A stretch of 56,887 bases of DNA from NCBI GenBank assembly GCA_903927025.1, contig CAIYLG010000004.1:1-56887 (forward strand), read 5' to 3'. Source of the stretch: an uncultured Armatimonadota bacterium. Lineage in GTDB: Bacteria > Armatimonadota > Fimbriimonadia > Fimbriimonadales > Fimbriimonadaceae. Under the pieces are notes generated by a model that did no database searches, was not told the DNA's origin, and was given only the letters and a program-made list of their open reading frames with translations. The translations under genes and the position numbers were made by a program. This document shows, one piece after another, positions 17,517 through 24,668 of the stretch. Every line of letters starts with the position of its first letter. Position 1 is the stretch's first letter.

Positions 17517-18470
17517 CTAGCCCTTCTCGCGAACTTCAAGCTGCTTCTTAAGAGCGAGCTCGATCCCCGGGAACTGGTTCGTCAGCGTCAAGAAATGCAG
17601 CATCTCAAGGGCGATAAAGGTGTCCTGATGCTTTGCAAAGTACCCATAGACCAGTGCAGCCTTGATGCCGGGATAAGATGGCGATTTCGATCCTCCTTCG
17701 CCCCCTTCGGACACCTCTACCGCCGCATCGAAACTCTCAAATTCATCCACCGCACTCGCCGCGAATAAGGTCTTCGAGCGGTTGAACTCCGCCCGCTTCT
17801 GAATTTCCCATATCGTTTTGTTCGTCCGCCCCTTATCGTCAGTAACGGAGAGCGTCACCAATTGAGCGATGGCATCAGACACATGGCTCGACAAATATTC
17901 GCCCAGAACCTTGCTGTTGGCAACACCGAAGGGATAGCCCTTTGTCCCGCCAAATGCAGCCGGAATCGGTCCAATCGATATTCCTGGTGCCCCATCCACC
18001 TGTAGGGTGATGCGAACGGACTGAGCAAGTTCATCGTGAACCCAAACAACCGGCAGGCTTCCATCGCTGAACACCGTCATGTTTCCGACCGCATCCTCGC
18101 TATCTTGGCGGGCAAAGATCGCCAATTTCTCGAACGGAGCAGGTTTGTCCCCAGCGCCGGCTCCCCGGCCCGCCAGCACTGTTCGTGAAGCCAATTCACC
18201 CACCTGCGCCAATTCTGAAGGAACCGAAAAGGCCGTGTTCCCGGCTAGCCTTACTCTCCGCCCATCCAAGATGAGGACGGCCTTAGACGACGCACTTGAA
18301 AGCGTGATCCGATCACCGGTGAACAGCCGGACACAGTTTCTCAACGACTCGGCACTCAGAGGCACCGTCTTCCCCGCCCCATGAACGAGCTGTCCCTGGC
18401 CCGCGAACGATGCAACATAGCCTCGACTCGTGTCGAGGATGGCTAAAGCGGCGAAAAAAGCGAGTGGCAT
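17517..18470 (-). CDS. Secreted protein with FecR-like N-terminal half, unknown function
   Basis: 317 residues. A short hydrophobic N-terminus (LAFFAALAILDTSRG) suggests export. Residues about 30-110 (GAGKTVPLSAESLRNCVRLF, ITLSSASSKAVLILDGRRVRL) resemble the FecR/iron-dicitrate-type strand pattern in which a periplasmic protein carries a glycine-rich signal turn; this is a weak likeness. The rest is not recognised. It lies downstream of the caspase-like gene (76 bases) with the same orientation and probably in one transcription unit with it and the CHASE2 gene. Confidence 0.6.
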   Translation of the reverse strand: MPLAFFAALAILDTSRGYVASFAGQGQLVHGAGKTVPLSAESLRNCVRLFTGDRITLSSASSKAVLILDGRRVRLAGNTAFSVPSELAQVGELASRTVLAGRGAGAGDKPAPFEKLAIFARQDSEDAVGNMTVFSDGSLPVVWVHDELAQSVRITLQVDGAPGISIGPIPAAFGGTKGYPFGVANSKVLGEYLSSHVSDAIAQLVTLSVTDDKGRTNKTIWEIQKRAEFNRSKTLFAASAVDEFESFDAAVEVSEGGEGGSKSPSYPGIKAALVYGYFAKHQDTFIALEMLHFLTLTNQFPGIELALKKQLEVREKG

Positions 18471-18546
18471 TGCAATCTCAAATCCTTAGGCGGATCAAAC
18501 GAATTCCATTCACGGTCAATTTCCAAGTGGGGATTCAACGTTGGGT

Positions 18547-20631
18547 CTAAATACTTGACGATTTCGATCCTTTCTTCAGAGCTTCAGTGGCTTCGTCGAT
18601 TGAGTCCTTATCACCTATTTTCTTCGCAAGGGTGATGCACTCCTCCAGGATAGCTTTTGCCCGTGCCTTGTCCTTTTGAGCATATAAGGTCTTCGCAAAC
18701 TCCAAGAGCGCTTCAATCCTGTCTTGAGGCAGGTCAGCCGGACGCACTCGCAGCGAGTTTTCAATCGCTTCGCCAGAAAGCTTCAAATTGGCAGCCCGAT
18801 CACCGGTTTTGAGTTCCCGGTAGGAAGTGCCGAGCCCGAGCATCCAGGCGCCATACAAATCGGGGTAGGCCTTTTCGGTATCGACCCGGAGGGCACTTTG
18901 ATAGCACTCGATCGATTTTTTAAGGTTGGAATCAGGGTCTCCGGTCGTCAGTTCGCCGTAGGAGTCTCCGAGATTCCCCATCGCGGTCGACCACAATTCA
19001 GGCTGGGTTTTCTCGCTAAGGACCTCCACCACGTTCTGCAGACACTTGACCGATTTTTTGATATTCGCGTCCCAGTTGTCATCTCGCATCAAGCGCAGGG
19101 CGACTCCAAAATTCATCATCGTAGTGGCCCAATCGATTGGATCGTTGCTCGCGCTCGACACTCGAATGGCCTGTTCATAACACTCGATCGCCTTCTTGTT
19201 GTTTGCCGCAATATCTCCTGTTCTCAATTGGCGATAGCAGTTGGCGAGATTGTTCATCGTGCCGGCATATGCTTGCGGATCCGACTTTTCAGAACGAACC
19301 CTGAGGACGGCGTTGTAGGTGTCAATCGCCTGCCGTACGTTTGCTTCGCGATCCCCAACTTGGAGATTCCTGTAGGAAACTGCGAGGTTGTTCATCGAGC
19401 TCGCCCAGTCTTCGGGATGCGTCTTCTCGGTAAGAACACGCAGGGCGGCACGAAAAGACTGGATCGCCTTTTGTATGTTGGCCTGTCGGTCTCCCGTTGG
19501 CAGGTAGTTGTAGATCGCTCCAACTTTGTGCATCGCCAATGCCCATTGATCGGGGTAGGTCGATTCCGTAAACACCGTCATGGCTTGGTTGAGTGCGTCC
19601 AAAGCTTTGTTGAGGTTCTTCGTTCGATTCCCGGTGGCCAATCCAATCAGGGCAATCGCATATTTGTCTTGTGCCTCTCCCCAAGCCTTTGGAGACTTGC
19701 CTTTGTCGGCATCGTCTAGGGCATTTTCTGCCTCCAGTACTTCTTGACTCGACTTATACGATAGGGCTTCAGCCGCCTGTCGATCCTTCTCCAGTCGTTC
19801 TTGTCGGGCTCTTTCGTCTGCCTGTTCTACAAGTTTTCCTGGCTTAAGCGCAAAGACATAGGTGCCCTGTGAGAGGGAAGCGCGGGTGACCGGAATGTAA
19901 TCTTTTGCCCGATAAAGGACGTCGCACGCCTGGGCGACATTCAAAGGATAGGTGTCGTCCTTCCCAAGACACGATACGATCGCACTGATCATTTGGGTGG
20001 ATTGGGAACTGTCATCGCTATACGAGCGACCACTGGCGCTGGCCGCAGCCCAGATCCCTCGAAACGGTCGCTTGAATTTATCCGAAAGCGAGGCGCCTTG
20101 ATCACCCCCCACCGTGGCGTCAACCGATGTCATGGATCCGGAATGGCAGCTGTCCGCAAGCATCAGAACGTGCTTCGCGGGAATTCCCTCTTTCGTGAGC
20201 ACGGCATCCGCGACCTCTTTCATCGGAATCAGGTTGTTGGCGGTACCGAAGAGCTGGAAGTATCCAACCTTCTCTTTGACGAGTCCATGGGTCGCAACCA
20301 CGACCAGCACCCGGTCTTGGCGTGATACTCGCATCGGATCCTTAAGCTTGGCAAGCTCGATTCTCACGTTCGCGACAGTCGCAGTAGGGCCGGTGAGGAT
20401 CGCTATATTTCCTTTGGGAAACCCACACGTCTCACCAAGTGCCTTCGCGATTGCCTTTGCCGAATTGCCAAACGCGACTTCGCCCTGTGGCGGCGTGCTG
20501 TCCGCAATGATCAGGGCGTGGGAGGTTCGATAGACTTGCTCTCCCTGATACTCCAGTGGCATGATTTCCGGCGCCAACGTTGAACGGGCTGCAAGGAAGG
20601 CGGTCACGATGGAGGCGAGAGATAGGGACAT
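18547..20631 (-). CDS. Exported caspase-like (C14) peptidase with TPR repeats
   Basis: 694 residues. It starts with a hydrophobic leader (SLASIVTAFLAARSTLA), so the protein is probably periplasmic or membrane-tethered. A caspase-type domain (about 35-265) has the catalytic dyad His115 in VVATHGL and Cys162 in LADSCHSG. Residues about 270-330 are helical and charged. The rest is about seven to eight 45-50-residue TPR-like repeats with the pattern MNNLAxxYRxLxxGDRxANxxxAIxxYxxALxV, as in CHAT- and caspase-associated repeats. The ATG at 20631 is used; a TTG at 20637 is just upstream. The CHASE2 gene ends 6 bases before it. Caspase-like proteases in bacteria act as regulated proteases in signalling or cell death; here a periplasmic site and TPR ligand sensing are suggested. 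Confidence 0.88.
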   Translation of the reverse strand: MSLSLASIVTAFLAARSTLAPEIMPLEYQGEQVYRTSHALIIADSTPPQGEVAFGNSAKAIAKALGETCGFPKGNIAILTGPTATVANVRIELAKLKDPMRVSRQDRVLVVVATHGLVKEKVGYFQLFGTANNLIPMKEVADAVLTKEGIPAKHVLMLADSCHSGSMTSVDATVGGDQGASLSDKFKRPFRGIWAAASASGRSYSDDSSQSTQMISAIVSCLGKDDTYPLNVAQACDVLYRAKDYIPVTRASLSQGTYVFALKPGKLVEQADERARQERLEKDRQAAEALSYKSSQEVLEAENALDDADKGKSPKAWGEAQDKYAIALIGLATGNRTKNLNKALDALNQAMTVFTESTYPDQWALAMHKVGAIYNYLPTGDRQANIQKAIQSFRAALRVLTEKTHPEDWASSMNNLAVSYRNLQVGDREANVRQAIDTYNAVLRVRSEKSDPQAYAGTMNNLANCYRQLRTGDIAANNKKAIECYEQAIRVSSASNDPIDWATTMMNFGVALRLMRDDNWDANIKKSVKCLQNVVEVLSEKTQPELWSTAMGNLGDSYGELTTGDPDSNLKKSIECYQSALRVDTEKAYPDLYGAWMLGLGTSYRELKTGDRAANLKLSGEAIENSLRVRPADLPQDRIEALLEFAKTLYAQKDKARAKAILEECITLAKKIGDKDSIDEATEALKKGSKSSSI

Positions 20632-20637
20632 AGTCAA

Positions 20638-22137
20638 CTAAGGTTGGGCAGGTGCCGCGGGTTCACTTTCGGGTTTGACCTTGGATTTATTCTTCTGCTC
20701 TTGGTGATGAAGGTGCCTGCGGACCACGACCAAGGCAAAGGCAGCTTCACCAAATCCTTCAATCAAACAGCTCAAGAGAATGGCAGGCGCGCCTGGCACC
20801 AGAAGGTGATGGATGTGAGTTTGGCCACAGAACCACAAGACCAGGAATGGAATGATGACGATTGCGACAAACAGCTCAATGAACAACCGATGAATCTCGG
20901 CATAAGCGGTTTCTGAATGAAATTTCCGTTTGGTCAGCAGAATGGAAAGAAACAGCATCTTGAGCAAGGATGCAAACCCACCGATCATCGTCGCAAAAAT
21001 GAATTCCGACAGTGGGCCGGTTAAGACGAGGACCTGATTGCCCAACAAGGTGTGGATCGCAGAAGCCTGATAGAGCACCCCACTTGTCGATATCAGCGAG
21101 ATACTCGTGTCAATGGCCTTTTCTTTGTCGGCCGACTCCCCTTTGACGATCGCGTTGAACGACGACCGAAAGCGGTTGAGGCTTGCGCCACTGATCGGAT
21201 AGTTAGCAGTATCCCCAGGCGAAGGGCGGAGAAGATCACCCAGTATCACAACGCGTCCGGTGAACTGTTTCCCAATGCGTGCATCGGCAATCGCCGGAAT
21301 CGGGCCGTTCTTGGCATAGATATCCAACGACTCCTGAATCATCGCCGGCACGGCTTCGTAGTTGATGAGGAACTTCTCTCGCTTTGAGGACTCCTCATCA
21401 GGCGACATTGAGAAGAAGCGAGACTTTGTGAGTTCAAGCGGTTGGGATTCTCGTACGCCGCGGAGCCCCTTGAACTCTGCAATCGCAACCGGAAGCGTTT
21501 CGATATCGCCCTCACCCTTCACCAGCGAGACATCGGAGAAGCTGCCCGGTTTTGGGCTGGACTGCTCCAGGGTGCAAGCCAGGTGCTTATAGGGCTCCTG
21601 GAGCTCGGAAAGGTGCCCGCCCGCCTTCAAGAATCGGTCCGCACCGAAGTAGACGGGAATACCTTTCAAGGTGCACTCACGAATCGATTTCCACAGGTCG
21701 AACCGGATGGAATTTGGGTTCAAATTCGTTTGAGATGCTCGAGGCATATCCTTTGGATCGGAGATGTCCCAATCCAAAGCAATTGCGGTGGGCTTCGCAT
21801 TGGAGATCTGCTCCAGGAGCATCGCTGCATTTTTGAAATTCTCGCGCTGATCTTCAGTGCCGTTCGTAAGCTTGCCTTCTGACTGGAGTTCGCTGGCCAA
21901 GCTTGGAAGCGATTGAGAAATGTCAAAAACAACGACTGGAGATTGCCGCTTGGAATCTAGAAAGTTGTCCTGCAGCAGCTTTTGCTCGTAGGAATATCCG
22001 GTGAGCGGCATGTCCACAATCCAAGGTTGACGATCCAGCCAAAGATGCTCAATCAGGTAAGAGCCAACACCAATGATCAGCGCTTTGATGAGAAGCTCTT
22101 TGATCAGTGGGATCGACTTCTGAAAGTGCTTCTTCAT
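20638..22137 (-). CDS. CHASE2-type extracytoplasmic sensor membrane protein, no output domain
   Basis: A 499-residue protein with one N-terminal membrane helix (LIKALIIGVGSYLI), a large outer domain (about 60-380) and three C-terminal membrane helices (for example FIFATMIGGFASLLKMLFLSIL and LFVAIVIIPFLVLWFCG). The outer domain has CHASE2 features: VVVFDISQSLPS, AIALDWDISDP and RVVILGDL. CHASE2 normally feeds a kinase or cyclase; here the protein ends in a charged His/Lys/Pro tail without an enzyme. The ATG at 22137 is preferred because a TATAAT at 22178-22173 on this strand lies too close to a TTG at 22170. It is the head gene of the caspase operon. Confidence 0.82.
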   Translation of the reverse strand: MKKHFQKSIPLIKELLIKALIIGVGSYLIEHLWLDRQPWIVDMPLTGYSYEQKLLQDNFLDSKRQSPVVVFDISQSLPSLASELQSEGKLTNGTEDQRENFKNAAMLLEQISNAKPTAIALDWDISDPKDMPRASQTNLNPNSIRFDLWKSIRECTLKGIPVYFGADRFLKAGGHLSELQEPYKHLACTLEQSSPKPGSFSDVSLVKGEGDIETLPVAIAEFKGLRGVRESQPLELTKSRFFSMSPDEESSKREKFLINYEAVPAMIQESLDIYAKNGPIPAIADARIGKQFTGRVVILGDLLRPSPGDTANYPISGASLNRFRSSFNAIVKGESADKEKAIDTSISLISTSGVLYQASAIHTLLGNQVLVLTGPLSEFIFATMIGGFASLLKMLFLSILLTKRKFHSETAYAEIHRLFIELFVAIVIIPFLVLWFCGQTHIHHLLVPGAPAILLSCLIEGFGEAAFALVVVRRHLHHQEQKNKSKVKPESEPAAPAQP

Positions 22138-22226: not shown

Positions 22227-24668
22227 CTAGAAGCCGAGCCCCGGACCGCGCTTCGTCGCCAGACCGATCTGCTCGAAGCCGCCGTGGCGACCGTTGTACC
22301 AAAGCATCCACTGCTTCTTCGCTTCGTCATAGATCGCAAACGGCTTGTAGCAGGCGTCGGCGTCCCAGCCGTCCACGGTGGGACTGAGGATCGGATTGCT
22401 CTTCAGCCTCTCCCAATGCGAGATCCCATCCCTTGAGCGCGCAATCCCGATTTGGGCATGGTCGATGTCTCGGAACCCGATATAGAACATGTAGTTCCAG
22501 CCCTGCCAGCGAACGACCTGGCAGGCCGTCACCTTATGCTGCTCCCATCGGTTCGTTGGATCCGCCTCGAAAATTGGCAGCTTGTTCTTGGTCCAGTGGA
22601 TCCCGTCGGTGCTCACCGCGTAGCCAATTGCATCAGGCTCATACTGGTCGCCTCCCGAGAACCACATTCGGAACTGGCTCGCCCTCGCGTCCCAAAGCAC
22701 CGTGGGGCACATCACGGCCACCTTCTCCCAAGGCTGATCGGCCTCCAGAACCGGGCGTTCTCGCCGCGACCAAGTGAGGCCATCTTTACTGGTCGCATAT
22801 CCAATGGAGGAGTGCCCGTTGAACTGGCCCGTGTACCACATGTGATAAAGACCACCCTGCTTGATCACGGACGGACGGTTGATGTCGTCTTCCCAACCCG
22901 TCTTCGTGGGCCCAATCAGGATCTTCGGCTCACCCCAGTGAATGCCGTCCTCGCTCTCCGCCAAGGCAACGCTCTGCTTAGGTCGCCACGAGAAGTACAT
23001 CTTGAACTTCCCGTCTTCCTCAAGCAGACAAATATCGAAGCAGGTTCCAAGGTTTCCACCCAAAACCGGACCGTCGTGCTTCTCCCAGTCATCCTTCTTG
23101 GCAGCGAGCGGCTTCTGTGCGGGCAACTTTGCGGATAAGTCACCCAAACTCGCTCGCTGGGCCACCTTCTCGCCATCTACATAAAGGGTTAGGCCAGGCT
23201 CCCGTCCATAGTGGCTGCCATCGGCATCCCACAGGATGGTCAGCGACTTGCCATGGTAAGGCACACCGTCCAAGCAGAACCATGGCCATTCCTTATCAGG
23301 GACTAGCGGCTTCACTTCAATCTGATTGTCATCTCGTGGCCGAAGCCCCACAAGGCCCGTGACAATGAGATCAGCAAACCCTGAATGGTTGTAGCAAACG
23401 CTTCGGGGCAGGTCAACGATCCACTTGCCGGTGTCCGCATTCAAGTCCTCTGCAACCCATGGCCGACCATCCTTCGTTTGTGACCGTGAATAGGTTTTAA
23501 GCAGCTTTAAATAATCAGACTTAGAGACAACAGTCGGAGAATAGTTGTCGAGGAGGTTTGCCAAGGCGACCAATGTCTGGGTAGTGGCATAAGGCCAAGA
23601 AGGCCCGTTCCACAGGCAGTCGTGGTCCTCATGCCGCATGAATCCGGGGTTTCGTCGCTCCACTGTTGTGGGGCCAAAAGGCGCCGCAAATCCTTGAGGG
23701 TCCGAAAGCTGGGACCATGCCGACTCGAATCCCTTGCTCGGCAAATTGAAATACCAAGGGACAAAGCCAATCTGCTCCCGCACATTCCGGGTTTGAATCT
23801 TGGATCCATTGGGGTCGGCAGTCGCGGTTTCAAAGAACGAATCGCCAGCGTTCCATAGGTGATCCTGGACAAGCCCTTTGAGCCGGGCCGCCTTATCCCT
23901 AAATTCGGTTGCCAGCACCTGATCCCCGCCGTCAGAGGCAATGGCCGCGATCGCTGCCGCATCGCCAAACATATAGGAGTTGATCGTCGGTCGGTAACCG
24001 CTGCCTCCCAGCGAATACTCCATCCCGTCTCGGTCATCGATCTGGCGGAAGAGCCCGCTTGTGTCCAAGTGGCTCCGTTCCCGCGCGCGATAATTCGCAA
24101 CGAGATTGGGCAACACCTTTTGGGCGAACTTGCGGTCTCCCGTCGCCAAGGTCACGGCTCGTATTGCATCCGCAGCCCAAAAACTGTAGTCGCGCGGCTT
24201 GGCCTCCGGAAGCAGCCAGAACTCGGAATAGTCCGTCATGTACTTCGAGTCCCGAAGCCACCTGCCTTCATAAAGATGATGCCCAGCCGCGCAGGAAATC
24301 GTGTTGTGGGTGCCTGCCCAAGGCACCTGAGGCAGAAATTCGGTTACCACCCATCCGGCAGGTGTCTCCGCCAGGTGCTTGCGATAGCTCCACCACCGAT
24401 AGTAATAGGTCTCCTCAAGCTGCTTATCCGGACAGTCAAACCACGGAATGTTCTTCTCCAGAAAGGCCCAAGAACGATCGTTGGGAATGGAAAGCTTCTG
24501 AGACTGACTGGCGACCGAATCCTCTGCATTGAACCGATCGACGTAGTGCTTGAAGGTCGAGGGTGAAAGTACGGCAGTCTTCATGGGCAGCTGAGGCAGA
24601 GAGCGGTCCTTTGTCAAGATACAAATGGACTTGGCCAGGAGAATCGGCGCAACTAACGCGAAGCTCAT
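22227..24668 (-). CDS. Two-module glycosidase: MGH1-like (alpha/alpha)6 barrel fused to a GH43/GH130-like propeller
   Basis: 813 residues. The first 500 or so form an (alpha/alpha)6-barrel glycosidase of the mannosylglycerate-hydrolase/GH63-like group: DRSWAFLEKNIPWFDCPD, TEFLPQVPWAGTHNTISCAAGHHLYEG split over residues about 105-132, LDTSGLFRQIDDRDGMEYSLG, and WNGPSWPYATTQ with the candidate catalytic acid region. A beta-sandwich linker follows (VDGEKVAQRASLGDLSAKL). Residues about 550-813 are a five-bladed propeller of repeats such as IGYATSKDGLTW, IGYAVSTDGIHW and IGIARSRDGISHWE, as in GH43/GH130-type enzymes. The N-terminus from the ATG at 24668 is hydrophobic and could be a signal. No partner gene is adjacent. 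Confidence 0.85.
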   Translation of the reverse strand: MSFALVAPILLAKSICILTKDRSLPQLPMKTAVLSPSTFKHYVDRFNAEDSVASQSQKLSIPNDRSWAFLEKNIPWFDCPDKQLEETYYYRWWSYRKHLAETPAGWVVTEFLPQVPWAGTHNTISCAAGHHLYEGRWLRDSKYMTDYSEFWLLPEAKPRDYSFWAADAIRAVTLATGDRKFAQKVLPNLVANYRARERSHLDTSGLFRQIDDRDGMEYSLGGSGYRPTINSYMFGDAAAIAAIASDGGDQVLATEFRDKAARLKGLVQDHLWNAGDSFFETATADPNGSKIQTRNVREQIGFVPWYFNLPSKGFESAWSQLSDPQGFAAPFGPTTVERRNPGFMRHEDHDCLWNGPSWPYATTQTLVALANLLDNYSPTVVSKSDYLKLLKTYSRSQTKDGRPWVAEDLNADTGKWIVDLPRSVCYNHSGFADLIVTGLVGLRPRDDNQIEVKPLVPDKEWPWFCLDGVPYHGKSLTILWDADGSHYGREPGLTLYVDGEKVAQRASLGDLSAKLPAQKPLAAKKDDWEKHDGPVLGGNLGTCFDICLLEEDGKFKMYFSWRPKQSVALAESEDGIHWGEPKILIGPTKTGWEDDINRPSVIKQGGLYHMWYTGQFNGHSSIGYATSKDGLTWSRRERPVLEADQPWEKVAVMCPTVLWDARASQFRMWFSGGDQYEPDAIGYAVSTDGIHWTKNKLPIFEADPTNRWEQHKVTACQVVRWQGWNYMFYIGFRDIDHAQIGIARSRDGISHWERLKSNPILSPTVDGWDADACYKPFAIYDEAKKQWMLWYNGRHGGFEQIGLATKRGPGLGF

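Follow-up and report, generated by a model that had tools for sequence, protein, structure and literature searches.

An output-less CHASE2 membrane protein and a probably exported caspase in a recurrent gene set of Armatimonadota

The three-gene locus

The window considered here, a stretch of 56,887 nucleotides, is one whole contig (C4) of the genome of an uncultured Armatimonadota bacterium. Three adjacent open reading frames (ORFs) lie head to tail on its minus strand. The first (20638..22137) encodes a CHASE2 membrane protein of 499 aa without an output domain, as judged from the ORF, its hydropathy, and homologues that score over the Pfam cut-off. The second (18547..20631) encodes a caspase of family C14, 694 aa long, predicted to be exported and carrying a TPR domain, identified by Pfam, alignment, and a structure model. 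The product of the third (17517..18470), 317 aa, is a predicted exported, distantly FecR-like partner protein, recognized by its hydrophobic N-terminus and profile comparison and without a Pfam match. As the preliminary description of this DNA had noted, the caspase gene starts 6 bases after the CHASE2 gene: its ATG at 20631 follows the TAG in the same frame, and one TAG and two codons part the two ORFs.

A second genome, G019, has the same three genes in the same order, with the TAG at the same place. An apparent fused frame of 1200 aa in that genome was considered as a CHASE2-caspase fusion and dropped; the same TAG stands between the two genes. Between the two genomes, all three genes have saturated synonymous sites (pS 0.75–0.84) while pN is 0.12–0.21, which indicates strong purifying selection on all of them. 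Judged by these comparisons, the three-gene arrangement is not a product of chance. The glycoside hydrolase genes that flank it in the window are not beside the module in G019, where there are other neighbours, and the three genes are therefore the unit. Positions 22227–24668 of the window encode an 813-aa protein in which an MGH1-like glycoside hydrolase domain is combined with a region having GH32/GH130/GH43-type matches.

Recurrence of the gene set

Seven modules carry the gene set, all from one Armatimonadota family and two of them in this genome. Module content is kept while order and strand vary, in five arrangements. The window and G019 share the order CHASE2-caspase-FecR; G007 has CHASE2-FecR-caspase, G004 has CHASE2-FecR followed by a WD40/caspase gene, with WD40 repeats in place of the TPRs, and G162 has FecR-CHASE2-caspase. 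The second module of the window's own genome, on contig C12, consists of CHASE2-FecR facing a caspase gene on the other strand, and in G126 a gene for an exported protein with a C-terminal caspase domain precedes, and overlaps, the CHASE2 gene. Conservation of the three-gene order, proposed earlier as a check, is found only in the nearest relative, G019; gene content is kept in all seven modules. Such variation in order and strand points to genes linked by function, not to a neighbourhood passed on by descent.

With leave-one-out profiles, all six attempts found the CHASE2 homologues again; of the FecR-like homologues, four were recovered well, that of G162 marginally, and that of G126 not at all. 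A scan of genome contigs returned only two modules that had already been found (L105 and L106) and an exported caspase without CHASE2 from Phycisphaerae (L107).

The CHASE2 protein

The CHASE2 gene starts with the ATG at 22137, in agreement with the start of an 80% identical relative (MNKRLKKAIP...). Hydropathy points to a basic N-terminus, one transmembrane segment (TM; residues 11–29, 22051..22107), a long ectodomain, three C-terminal TMs (residues 379–471, 20725..21003), and a tail, all encoded on the minus strand; one TM before the ectodomain and three after it is the layout of CHASE2 receptors. Residues 104–370 of the ectodomain (21028..21828, minus strand) match the CHASE2 family PF05226 with 22.1 bits (E 1.3e-4), below the cut-off of 26.3, and four homologues exceed that cut-off with 29.7–61.5 bits (in G007, the second module of the same genome, G004, and G126). 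No cytoplasmic output domain is present: the protein ends in a charged tail of 28 residues that has no Pfam match, in line with the enzyme-less CHASE2 protein first described.

The caspase and its TPR domain

The caspase of the window matches Peptidase_C14 (PF00656) with 30.6 bits and an E value of 3.4e-7, over the cut-off of 21.4. Pfam and the structure model place its p20-type domain at residues 56–226 (19954..20466, minus strand), and the order of strands and helices in the model is caspase-like, in a part of the model that has low confidence. The catalytic dyad that had been named earlier, His115 (20287..20289) and Cys162 (20146..20148, both minus strand), occupies conserved alignment columns, is found in all seven module caspases, and aligns with that of the solved metacaspase-4 (6w8s, E 3e-7); the entry 6w8r has Ala at the position matching Cys162. 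With a p20 domain over the cut-off and a His/Cys dyad, the protein falls within the caspase family and is a putative protease.

Some indication of specificity comes from Asp160, two residues before Cys162, which on reading the sequences is part of a D-x-C motif in all seven module caspases. Orthocaspases cut after basic residues, and their specificity pocket retains acidic ones (PMC6426788). Conservation of Asp160 together with this pattern makes cleavage after Lys or Arg the likely specificity of the window caspase.

Towards the C-terminus, residues 336–690 (18562..19626, minus strand) form eight TPR-like helix pairs, about the number given in the preliminary description, according to Pfam (TPR_12, E 4.7e-16), the model, and matches to TPR superhelices of the LGN/Rap type. 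The modelled TPR region resembles the peptide-binding TPR domains of LGN and Rap (Z 25–30). Structure matches of the caspase model cover essentially this part (residues 290–694) and are, for that reason, uninformative on the caspase fold.

Probable export of the caspase

Residues 1–20 of the caspase (20572..20631, minus strand) resemble a signal peptide in hydrophobicity and in their pattern of divergence. Only 7 of the 20 residues are identical to the G019 homologue, compared with 78% identity in the remainder of the protein, and pN is 0.36 in the N-terminus and 0.08 in the caspase domain. Hydrophobicity is kept while the sequence is free to change, as expected of a signal peptide. Two simple, home-made rules for signal peptides, triggered by 2% and 6% of internal Met starts, were applied, and each of the seven module caspases satisfies one or both. 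The G004 and G126 proteins begin with a signal-like N-terminus, and their caspase domain follows only hundreds of residues later. Counting against export, the n-region of the putative signal peptide in the window has no basic residues. The signal peptide first noted from the sequence is in line with the simple rules and the divergence pattern, and the window caspase is probably exported.

This may be a common situation in the phylum. Signal-peptide-like N-termini were found in 28 of the 30 best-scoring Peptidase_C14 proteins of an Armatimonadota survey (L055–L084), which suggests that exported caspases are the rule there. An N-terminal helix, possibly a signal peptide, is present in many bacterial metacaspases (PMC3501461), and a secreted caspase has been reported in Bradyrhizobium (PMC3355149). 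The earlier premise that bacterial caspases are usually cytoplasmic does not hold up against the survey and these reports. In the Phycisphaerae locus L107 (7770–9565), an exported caspase is followed, by reading, by an FGE-sulfatase-like region in the same ORF.

The FecR-like protein

The third protein had been described as secreted and FecR-like. Its hydrophobic N-terminus fits the first part of that description, and its resemblance to FecR is only distant. Neither this protein nor the other FecR-like module proteins that were scanned match PF04773 (FecR). In hhalign comparisons, the window protein reached a probability of 71% to a true FecR protein, L020, and 22% to another, L023, with controls at or below 0.2%, which we regard as a weak and distant likeness. 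The structure model has a pLDDT of 47.9, too poor for fold searches. The N-terminal part of the G126 protein is not recognizable as FecR by profile (0.6%), and a FecR-caspase fusion in that genome, lacking profile support for the FecR part, was not kept. A lone homologue of the window protein (L114:7851–8804, from G004:C125) stands without CHASE2 or caspase neighbours, a point against the sensor-protease reading given below.

CHASE2 proteins with and without an output domain

The output-less CHASE2 proteins were compared with others from the same family of bacteria, of which 16 contain a cyclase domain by Pfam and one ends in an unassigned C-terminal tail. Pfam genome scans had missed the window's own CHASE2 protein and caspase, so the search for caspase neighbours was repeated with a local profile, which covered all six frames at the comparison loci. 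A caspase adjoins 7 of 7 output-less CHASE2 proteins and 1 of the 17 that bear a cyclase or tail at the C-terminus (Fisher p 2.3e-5, in a test that takes no account of relatedness). The sole exception to this contrast is a CHASE2-cyclase at L088:3518–10526 (G159:C16), with an exported-looking caspase a few kilobases away. In a tree, the seven output-less proteins sit on one branch (100/100), together with the CHASE2 protein of L021, which lacks an output domain at the C-terminus and bears a cyclase-like region at the N-terminus. Its neighbours (L021:1–5242, G156:C20) are a FecR-like gene and genes for two exported proteins, one of 634 aa and the other a WD40 protein that is truncated at the contig end and is possibly a caspase. 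Taken with the tree, the contrast indicates that the missing C-terminal output domain goes together with the caspase neighbour; a single ancestral change may lie behind this.

Relation to known systems

Some of these associations have precedents. In the BiofilmReg operon of Burkholderia, a CHASE2 histidine kinase adjoins an exported LysM-FecR protein, and the CHASE2 sensor has one TM, the CHASE2 domain, and three TMs, as in the window (PMC5192318). The window departs from this by a CHASE2 protein that lacks an enzyme domain in the cytoplasm and by the addition of a caspase that is probably exported. CHASE2-FecR pairs with a histidine kinase also occur in Armatimonadota (L020 and L023), and at L092 a CHASE2-cyclase of the same family has a true FecR neighbour.

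A link between caspase and CHASE2 is likewise known from Trichodesmium, as a metacaspase-CHASE2 fusion with a caspase predicted to be cytoplasmic (PMC3501461), whereas the window caspase is a separate protein and probably extracytoplasmic. The caspase-YARHG protein of Bradyrhizobium (PMC3355149) and the Phycisphaerae protein at L107 combine a signal peptide with a C14 domain, as the window caspase probably does; CHASE2 or FecR neighbours are not reported for the former (PMC3355149) and were not seen at the latter. We found no open-licence paper on an output-less CHASE2 protein with an exported caspase. What would be new here is a sensor pair in which an extracytoplasmic protease replaces the cytoplasmic enzyme, CHASE2-FecR pairs and CHASE2-caspase fusion being already known.

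Possible mechanisms

Our preferred reading, to which we give a little less than an even chance, is that the module is an outward-facing, membrane-anchored sensor-protease unit, with an exported caspase that docks through its TPRs and is under the control of CHASE2 and the FecR-like protein. Domain content, the catalytic dyad, the absent output domain, the recurrent co-occurrence, and the probable export are the elements of this reading that the sequences support. The CHASE2 protein would span the inner membrane with its N-terminus inside, its ectodomain outside, three TMs, and a short tail inside, and would anchor or sense outside the cytoplasm. The FecR-like protein would be exported and act as its partner, much as in CHASE2-FecR gene pairs already known. 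The exported caspase would serve as the output, replacing the cyclase or kinase of the cytoplasm: its TPR superhelix would dock a peptide or partner (the CHASE2 ectodomain, the FecR-like protein, or some other protein of the envelope), and its C14 domain would cut an envelope substrate, probably after Lys or Arg. We infer the physical complex, the gating of the protease by CHASE2 and FecR, the substrate, and the P1 specificity. More tentative still is the wider proposal that a family of CHASE2 receptors gave up its cytoplasmic enzyme and now relays its signal by way of a partner protease outside the membrane, as an extracytoplasmic ligand-gated caspase system.

One of the two main rivals, which we consider unlikely, holds that the genes share their regulation while the caspase works on its own as a general envelope protease, outside the control of CHASE2 and FecR. 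Exported caspases are widespread in Armatimonadota without CHASE2 neighbours, and the C12 caspase lies on the opposite strand, as this would allow; it is weakened by the finding that, however the modules are rearranged, an output-less CHASE2 protein always comes with a caspase.

The other main rival, a cytoplasmic caspase that forms the output half of a split CHASE2 receptor, with an incidental hydrophobic N-terminus or read-through of the TAG into a fusion, seems improbable. It draws on the shared reading frame, interrupted by a single stop and two codons, and on the predicted cytoplasmic caspase of the Trichodesmium fusion (PMC3501461). Against it, the TAG persists in a relative whose synonymous sites are saturated, other modules have the genes separated or in a different order, and the N-termini of all seven caspases are hydrophobic, with exported architectures in G004 and G126. 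Read-through, moreover, would turn the hydrophobic stretch into a fifth TM and still leave the caspase outside.

Several bacterial systems of cell death and immunity employ caspases, and the module might be a killing or self/non-self system whose exported caspase acts on other cells or invaders; a PADLOC search gave no match beyond a weak TPR hit, the module has no toxin, immunity, or pore gene, and we hold this very improbable.

Significance

If the sensor-protease reading is true, bacterial caspases would work outside the cytoplasm as regulated envelope proteases. The ligands of CHASE2 are unknown (PMC5192318), and the domain would gain a system whose output is a measurable cleavage. The survey, which suggests that exported caspases are the rule in Armatimonadota, turns the focus from programmed cell death as the role to be assumed for them by default.
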